Source: Woeseia sp. (GTDB taxonomy: Bacteria > Pseudomonadota > Gammaproteobacteria > Steroidobacterales > Woeseiaceae). From it: a DNA stretch of 56,515 nt. The position numbers and the translations under genes are program-made. Location: positions 1 to 56,515 of the forward strand of contig JABDKF010000061.1 of assembly GCA_013003155.1 (NCBI GenBank), read 5' to 3'. Of the stretch, positions 4,822 to 5,805 are shown in pieces. Below the pieces are notes generated by a model. It was given only the letters and a program-made list of their open reading frames with translations, did no database searches and was not told the DNA's origin. The stretch's first letter is position 1; every line of letters starts with the position of its first letter.

Positions 4822-4921
4822 TGGCCTGTCTGCCTGGCGACGAATTTGCCCGATTATGAGCCCGTCACCAACGACGCATCGCGAATAGATAAATAAGAAA
4901 TTCAATAATTTATGAGGAATG

Positions 4922-5006
<85 letters not shown>

Positions 5007-5099
5007 TTGTGCCCGATCCGCCAGGTACTCGCACCCTTTGTCCAGCCGCGCATTATAGCGGATGTGCTGGTGAACGTGGGGTGGATCGCGCAACGGGAA

Positions 5100-5175
5100 T
5101 GGTGGGCCCCCGGGGACTCGAACCCCGGACCAAGAGATTAAGAGTCTCCTGCTCTACCAACTGAGCTAGAGGCCC
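5100..5175 (-). tRNA. tRNA-Lys (anticodon CUU)
   Basis: A 76-nt cloverleaf with encoded CCA. The acceptor strands GGGCCTC and GGGGCCC pair with one wobble. The D-arm is GCTCAGTTGGTAGAGC. The anticodon stem GGAGA/TCTCT encloses loop CTCTTAA, so the anticodon is CUU, decoding AAG. The T-arm is CCGGGGTTCGAGTCCCCGG. It lies between the degenerate His copy and tRNA-Leu. Confidence 0.95.
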
Positions 5176-5183
5176 GTTGAAAA

Positions 5184-5320
5184 TGGGGTGGACGATGGGA
5201 CTCGAACCCTACTGGGACGAAGGCACCATCCACCCGCATGCGACGTGATTATCGACTGCGACCGACCGGGATCACAACCCGGGGCTCTACCCTGCCGCTT
5301 CGCGGCCCCGCTACGCCCAC
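5184..5320 (-). pseudogene. Degenerate tRNA-His copy with two insertions
   Basis: This 137-nt stretch matches the intact tRNA-His (5341-5417) at the acceptor 5' strand (GTGGGCG), the complete anticodon arm (anticodon GTG), the T-loop and the 3' end through the terminal CCA. It is interrupted twice. The D-loop segment of 8 nt is replaced by 20 nt containing the hairpin GCCGC-GAA-GCGGC. Four nt of the variable/T-stem junction are replaced by 53 nt. The net excess of 61 nt accounts exactly for the length difference from a 76-nt tRNA. The upper T-stem no longer pairs. Part of the second insert (GGGTGGATGG) can pair with the acceptor 3' strand, forming an alternative hairpin followed by ATTTTC. 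It is most simply a decaying duplicate. A processed, regulatory or terminator role is possible but unproven. Confidence 0.85.
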
Positions 5321-5340
5321 AACTCACATTTTTCAATTAA

Positions 5341-5417
5341 TGGGGTGGACGATGGGACTCGAACCCACGACGACCGGGATCACAACCCGGGGCTCTACCA
5401 ACTGAGCTACGCCCACC
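5341..5417 (-). tRNA. tRNA-His (anticodon GUG)
   Basis: A 76-nt tRNA plus the G-1 residue characteristic of histidine tRNAs (5417), with encoded CCA. The acceptor strands are GTGGGCG and CGTCCAC, with C73 opposite G-1. The anticodon stem CCGGG/CCCGG encloses TTGTGAT, so the anticodon is GUG. It is the intact counterpart of the degenerate copy 20 bp downstream in the operon. Confidence 0.97.
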
Positions 5418-5472
5418 ACTACCTTATTCATATACCTTACTTTGTTGCCTGCCCCGGCCAACACCAGCAATC

Positions 5473-5549
5473 TGGCGCGCCCGGCAGGACTCGAACCTGC
5501 AACCCCCGGCTTAGAAGGCCGGTGCTCTATCCGGTTGAGCTACGGGCGC
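5473..5549 (-). tRNA. tRNA-Arg (anticodon UCU)
   Basis: A 77-nt cloverleaf with encoded CCA. The acceptor strands GCGCCCG and CGGGCGC pair fully. The anticodon stem CCGGC/GCCGG encloses CTTCTAA, giving UCU (AGA/AGG codons). The T-arm is GCAGGTTCGAGTCCTGC. It is the second gene of the tRNA operon. Confidence 0.97.
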
Positions 5550-5572
5550 GGTACGGTCTGCACACGGAGGAA

Positions 5573-5649
5573 TGGTCGGGGCAGAGAGATTCGAACTCCC
5601 GACCCTCTGCTCCCAAAGCAGATGCGCTACCAGGCTGCGCTATGCCCCG
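5573..5649 (-). tRNA. tRNA-Pro (anticodon UGG)
   Basis: A 77-nt cloverleaf beginning with C1, as usual for proline tRNAs, with encoded CCA. The acceptor strands are CGGGGCA and TGCCCCG. The anticodon stem TCTGC/GCAGA encloses TTTGGGA, giving UGG. It is the first gene of the operon, about 50 nt after the promoter. Confidence 0.97.
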
Positions 5650-5705
5650 CCTTTCTCCGCTCCGCTAAGGTCGGCCAAACTCTGGCAGACCCTGACGGGG
5701 GGCCG

Positions 5706-5734
5706 ATGATACGGCCGCCTCCGGGGGCAGTCAA
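5706..5734 (-). promoter_or_regulatory. Promoter of the tRNA operon
   Basis: The minus strand carries TTGACT, exactly 17 bp, then TATCAT, the best sigma70-like match in the window. The bases after the -10 are extremely GC-rich (CGGCCCCCC), a discriminator type known from stringently controlled stable-RNA promoters. It drives tRNA-Pro, Arg, His, the degenerate copy, Lys and Leu, and perhaps reads into tig. Confidence 0.75.
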
Positions 5735-5805
5735 CGCAGCGGCACTGATAAGTCCTTGGCTATACGGCGCTTTAGCGAGGTGGCCCGCTTTGGTATCGTC
5801 CCGCT

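Follow-up and report, generated by a model that had tools for sequence, protein, structure and literature searches.

Modified tRNA copies with a covarying D-arm hairpin in Woeseiaceae: a lineage-specific family of possible tRNA-derived RNAs

The window, the whole 56,515-nucleotide stretch of DNA that was analysed, comes from one contig of a fragmented 3.28-Mb draft genome and carries a tRNA operon in the order Pro-Arg-His-copy-Lys-Leu on its minus strand. The operon's neighbours are a cyclophilin-like gene at one end and trigger factor, clpP and clpX at the other end, as named from ORF translations. Both ARAGORN and Rfam call tRNA-Pro (tgg; 5573..5649) and tRNA-Arg (tct; 5473..5549) upstream, the intact 76-nt tRNA-His (gtg; 5341..5416) that is the parent sequence of the copy, and tRNA-Lys (ctt; 5100..5175) and tRNA-Leu (tag; 4922..5006) downstream, all on the minus strand. 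The operon has one promoter candidate, a sigma-70-like TTGACT-17-TATCAT ahead of tRNA-Pro (5706..5734, minus strand) that is a consensus match only, and a search from 4850 to 5800 found no terminator-like site; for these two reasons the copy is very likely transcribed.

The modified tRNA-His copy spans 137 nt (5184..5320, minus strand) and equals the neighbouring tRNA-His at all positions outside two replacements. The identical parts are GTGGGCGTAGC, corresponding to the acceptor 5′ strand GTGGGCG and TAGC (5310..5320); GGTAGAGC with the whole anticodon arm CCCGGGTTGTGATCCCGGTCG (29 nt; 5263..5291); and the last 26 nt including CCA, the tRNA-His 3′ end GGGTTCGAGTCCCATCGTCCACCCCA (5184..5209), which is identical in nearly all relatives' units. 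In the D-loop, the 6 bases TCAGTT are replaced by the 18-nt GGGGCCGCGAAGCGGCAG (5292..5309), whose stem GCCGC/GCGGC closes a GAA triloop (5294-5306); in the variable loop, the 4 bases TCGT are replaced by 53 nt, GTCGCA and 47 more (5210..5262), an insert whose length is constant family-wide and whose sequence is unrelated. The excess length is 12+49=61 nt. A preliminary description of this DNA, made from the sequence, had reported two inserts totalling 61 nt at exactly this position, retained acceptor ends, anticodon arm and CCA, and a decayed T-stem beside an intact anticodon arm, all of which is borne out; the T-stem, read from sequence, keeps 3 of 5 pairs.

Scoring the copy as a tRNA, which the preliminary description had recommended, gives a negative answer: in the window neither ARAGORN nor the Rfam tRNA model (RF00005) scores the 137-nt copy as a tRNA. 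That the copy functions as a tRNA-His with an extended variable arm is highly improbable; the anticodon arm and CCA are undamaged and the acceptor still pairs, however the five-pair T-stem and standard D-arm of a tRNA are reduced to three pairs and a replaced D-loop, the base preceding the acceptor strand is T, so that the encoded G-1 is absent, and an intact tRNA-His gene lies 20 nt away. Folding of the whole copy is hardly better than that of shuffled sequence (z -1.34). Among Rfam families other than tRNA, matches to YrlA and Plastid-ycf2 are weak resemblances to genuine tRNAs, and none is convincing.

The second insert contains GGGTGGATGGT (within 5210..5262, minus strand), which complements the acceptor 3′ strand in the window copy only. 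The alternative hairpin that had been claimed for these two segments is real as a pairing (-17.7 kcal/mol, p 0.003 over 300 shuffles) and is present in the minimum-energy fold of the window copy; it is not conserved, however, and a conserved mini-helix between spacer and acceptor strand is rejected, being strong in the window copy only (mean z -0.16 across 18 units, one being the window copy and the others from relatives). The further proposal that this hairpin, followed by ATTTTC, acts as an operon terminator or attenuator is very improbable and is not upheld: the insert does pair with the acceptor strand and TTTTC comes next, but the search of 4850-5800 found no terminator-like site, the pairing is unconserved among relatives, and two tRNA genes, tRNA-Lys and tRNA-Leu, follow downstream.

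Comparison with relatives by BLASTN in 107 genomes of the family reveals near-full-length counterparts in other genera at 81% identity (G010, G053), and many extra tRNA-His 3′ ends about 150 nt from tRNA-His. Of the 70 family genomes in which a tRNA-His 3′ end was matched, about 18 have extra copies, a patchy distribution. A family of modified tRNA copies exists in several genera; both inserts recur in relatives, which the preliminary description had missed. On reading of the loci, the units fall into three classes. Class A is a downstream copy with the D hairpin, the anticodon arm and, in several cases, an inserted spacer (with spacer, the window, L004 and L005; without, L006 and L126). Class B consists of downstream units with a period of 148-154 nt, in which the palindrome GACCGGGATC-GATTGTT...-GATCCCGGTC is followed by a spacer and the 26-nt tRNA-His 3′ end; the non-tRNA loop GATTGTT is conserved where its flanks are not. 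Class C comprises 5′ units, often tandem, that lie upstream of a tRNA gene and combine the acceptor 5′ strand and D hairpin with, in most cases, GGTAGGC, and with either a portion of the anticodon arm or a different hairpin; these involve tRNA-Phe in many genomes, tRNA-His in L008 and tRNA-Met in L078, other tRNAs having been scanned across whole genomes by pattern only. Units downstream of tRNA-His share a fixed layout, in which a hairpin or anticodon arm is followed by a spacer of ~52 nt and then by the tRNA-His 3′ end with CCA.

Clearly decayed Phe copies are present in L052 and in G106, a single-contig genome of the same genus; in the latter (L044, 600-1000) tRNA-Phe has two decayed copies nearby, one of which shows this D hairpin again and has several small hairpins within an insert in its T-loop. 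Two further candidate hairpins were rejected: a conserved first hairpin (V1) in the palindromic class (mean z -0.82) is suggestive in just one subgroup, where the RNAalifold consensus is unconvincing, and a conserved second hairpin in the 5′ units of tRNA-Phe (29 units, mean z -1.11) is strong in some and absent in others. Many contigs end inside or next to arrays (L004, L005, L035, L118, L121, L123, L125, L126, L128, L134), so array copy numbers in drafts are probably under-counted; arrays seem to break assemblies.

Among 18 distinct units that terminate with the tRNA-His 3′ end, the length of the spacer is 50-54 nt (mean 52.2, sd 1.0), although its sequence is saturated; the class A spacers of the window and G010 are 59% identical, versus 62% for shuffled sequence. 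A folded spacer is rejected, with a mean z of -0.24 and folding no better than that of shuffles. Constant length together with saturated sequence suggests either a spacing constraint or block replacement without length change. At G068:C21 86296-86624 (L049), two tandem units have near-identical first parts and very different spacers, both exactly 53 nt; this arrangement suggests patchy gene conversion or block replacement.

The D-arm hairpin, of the type TAGCGGGG-NNNNN-GNA-NNNNN-CARGGTAG, is found with ≤2 mismatches in 20 of 107 family genomes and 7 of 12 genera, the match at L074 being probably due to chance. Its hosts are copies of tRNA-His, tRNA-Phe and tRNA-Met: all inspected motifs except L074 lie within a partial or full copy of one of these three, or form such a copy beside a tRNA gene. 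An exact scan of ~85,000 species, using a pattern in which stem positions are partly free and the loop G and A are fixed, returns only 23 stretches with the hairpin; their titles are nearly all Gammaproteobacteria, Proteobacteria, Woeseiaceae or Woeseia, mostly drafts, and the two exceptional titles, 'Rhodospirillaceae' and 'Bacterium MnTg04', have the same tRNA context.

The pairing of the D-arm hairpin is kept while its sequence changes. Across 23 distinct sequences, a set collected in part with a pattern favouring pairing letters, 95.7% of cells in the stem are paired and 4 of 5 pairs have changed on both sides; the covariation score was reached by 0 of 500 shuffles. Because of this bias a cleaner test is provided by the two pattern-free pairs in the 28 exact-scan motifs, where 56 of 56 cells pair, shuffles giving 46.2 and none of 10,000 reaching the observed value; both covariation tests are inflated by the relatedness of the sequences. 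To arrive at the observed pair types (C-G, U-A, G-C, U-G), several independent changes are nonetheless required. All 28 exact-scan motifs have a G-N-A loop, G and A being set by the pattern itself, and ATC, AAA and ACA also occur in the ≤2-mismatch set. GCGNAGC sequences are known to form DNA mini-hairpins of unusual stability. The general concept of unusually stable mini-hairpins, and nothing more specific, is supported by earlier work (PMC10527192).

Compensatory changes in a conserved helix, the mark of a structured RNA, are found for the D-arm hairpin only. Since the shared hairpin pairs on across genera, the copy is not one gene rotting at random. The interpretation in the preliminary description is accordingly upheld in part. 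Its suspicion that more than chance decay is at work is supported: relatives show more than random decay, with recurring inserts of constant length and a hairpin compensated in three tRNA families; retention is supported for the D hairpin and the layout, and is not supported for the alternative hairpin or the terminator.

An assembly or sequencing artefact, a concern already raised for this locus, has a negligible probability; the window genome is a fragmented draft, however the same kind of copy is present in independent assemblies, including one single-contig genome of 4.06 Mb. Template switching is the strongest rival to a retained RNA. It may quite possibly be the case that the copies are functionless, neutral scars of tandem duplication at tRNA genes, after which short-range template switching builds and repairs palindromes; template switching is described as a mechanism that can also yield compensatory changes (PMC8794818), and it can maintain hairpins without selection. 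Inverted copies of the adjacent tRNA point to such a process: the tRNA-His 5′ end is present in reverse complement in L004 and L007, and GATTTTCAG, found in several Phe units, is complementary to a portion of the Phe anticodon arm. In the palindromic class the 5′ arm is complementary to the 3′ strand of the anticodon stem, and the patchiness among family genomes fits the same account. Neutral scars are harder to reconcile with the several different single-pair swaps that the D hairpin shows in the same 27-nt frame across genera, with a spacer held at 52.2 ± 1.0 nt despite saturation, and with the conservation of the GATTGTT loop beside unconserved flanks.

It is rather improbable, though worth weighing, that the units are accumulated att remnants, some of them duplicated in tandem, left behind by phages or islands that inserted in the tRNA-His and tRNA-Phe genes through a crossover close to the anticodon loop. 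In two IMG/VR contigs, L151 (9156-9181) and L152 (1556-1581), a segment of tRNA-His running from the anticodon loop to CCA adjoins a tyrosine integrase gene or overlaps its end; this segment is probably attP, and GGGTTCGAGTCCCATCGTCCACCCCA is its terminal part. Palindromic units keep the tRNA from about the anticodon loop to CCA, and in 5′ units it is retained as far as the anticodon arm; because the units break at or near this arm on both sides of the tRNA and phage contigs hold the tRNA-His segment, integrase events may have started the family. An att remnant should nonetheless be an uninterrupted tRNA 3′ segment equal to the integrase core site, as in the phage contigs, with an integrase gene adjoining; the units hold a spacer of ~52 nt within the segment (53 nt in the window copy), no integrase gene adjoins the site at the window operon, and neither integrase nor cargo was seen in the units. 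The D-arm hairpin common to His, Phe and Met copies is also left unexplained by integration. Neither this hairpin nor the class B palindrome has any match in IMG/VR, and carriage of either by phages was rejected on that search.

The copy is tentatively considered, at a little under even confidence, to be a member of a lineage-specific Woeseiaceae family of tRNA-derived, co-transcribed RNAs that are probably released during tRNA processing. The copies would be transcribed along with the operon. In the loci read, a short A/T-rich stretch follows each CCA end, which is the usual setting of tRNA trailer processing by RNase E and 3′ exonucleases; tRNA-processing enzymes would cut the copies out at this trailer, giving a stable, non-translating RNA of ~137-155 nt. 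Release of such an RNA is judged, from the features of the loci, to be the most likely outcome of processing. Against the retention of such an RNA stand the patchy distribution, at about 18 of 70 genomes, the clear decay of some copies, the ability of template switching to produce compensatory changes, and a spacer that shows neither sequence conservation nor excess folding. Tandem duplication of tRNA halves, with joining at the anticodon loop, probably gave rise to the copies, and gene conversion is the probable route by which the hairpin passed from one tRNA copy to another; the identity of the tRNA-like segments could likewise reflect conversion, in this case by the neighbouring tRNA. A stronger version of the co-transcribed RNA family is possible but unlikely: that copies of tRNA-His, -Phe and -Met form a new structured small-RNA family, which selection maintains in Woeseiaceae and tRNA processing sets free to act in trans, e.g., by serving as a decoy for some nuclease or tRNA-binding enzyme, the hairpin module being exchanged between copies of different tRNAs.

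The co-transcribed RNA family resembles several known systems. The E. coli tyrT repeats are ~150-180 bp long, lie downstream of a tRNA gene and each end in a tRNA 3′ end. The E. coli rtT RNA is released from a tRNA operon transcript (PMC4986893, PMC2965389); any RNA released in Woeseiaceae may likewise be a structured by-product or decoy, as proposed for rtT. Woeseiaceae units share with tyrT a repeat that lies downstream of a tRNA gene, within a tRNA operon, and ends in the 3′ end of that tRNA; they differ in the use of tRNA-His, -Phe and -Met in place of tRNA-Tyr, in a D-arm hairpin, a fixed-length internal spacer and units also upstream of the tRNA, and in lacking an Rfam RtT match, both in the window and at four relatives' loci. 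In Bacillus cereus the pseudo-tRNA tRNA-Other lies inside a regulatory RNA and has a deletion phenotype (PMC3399842); it too resembles a tRNA, has no part in translation and may have been kept for a different function, however it is a single genomic-island element studied experimentally, whereas the Woeseiaceae family comprises many copies of several tRNAs known from sequence. With the att sites of integrated phages and islands the units have in common incomplete tRNA copies that break close to the anticodon loop and terminate with CCA, including the same tRNA-His segment as the probable attP; they differ in the spacer inside the segment, in a covarying hairpin shared between tRNAs and in the absence of an integrated element. 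REP elements associated with Y1 (RAYT) transposases are also short palindromes, and GTAG lies ahead of the hairpin; the Woeseiaceae hairpin, in contrast, is confined to tRNA copies and not dispersed, and a REP/RAYT origin was rejected, Y1_Tnp being absent from three hairpin-carrying genomes (G106, G011, G028).

Broken copies of tRNA genes usually count as debris and receive no further attention. In this family a hairpin module is common to the copies of three tRNAs and its pairing is kept across genera of a sediment lineage, which makes the retention of pseudo-tRNAs as RNA, as against the mechanics of mutation, testable. The family looks undescribed; in a narrow literature check on Woeseia and tRNA, none of the papers listed was on this subject, judged by title and abstract. 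A separate repeat, RAATTGATCTTTAGT, is present near relatives' tRNA-His operons and absent from the window (L006 1630-1644; L008 589-1249, 4 copies; L010; L042; L059, 3 copies; L060; L070); in some loci it follows an imperfect ATTCTCCC...GGTGAGAAT stem, and it is possibly a miniature mobile element.
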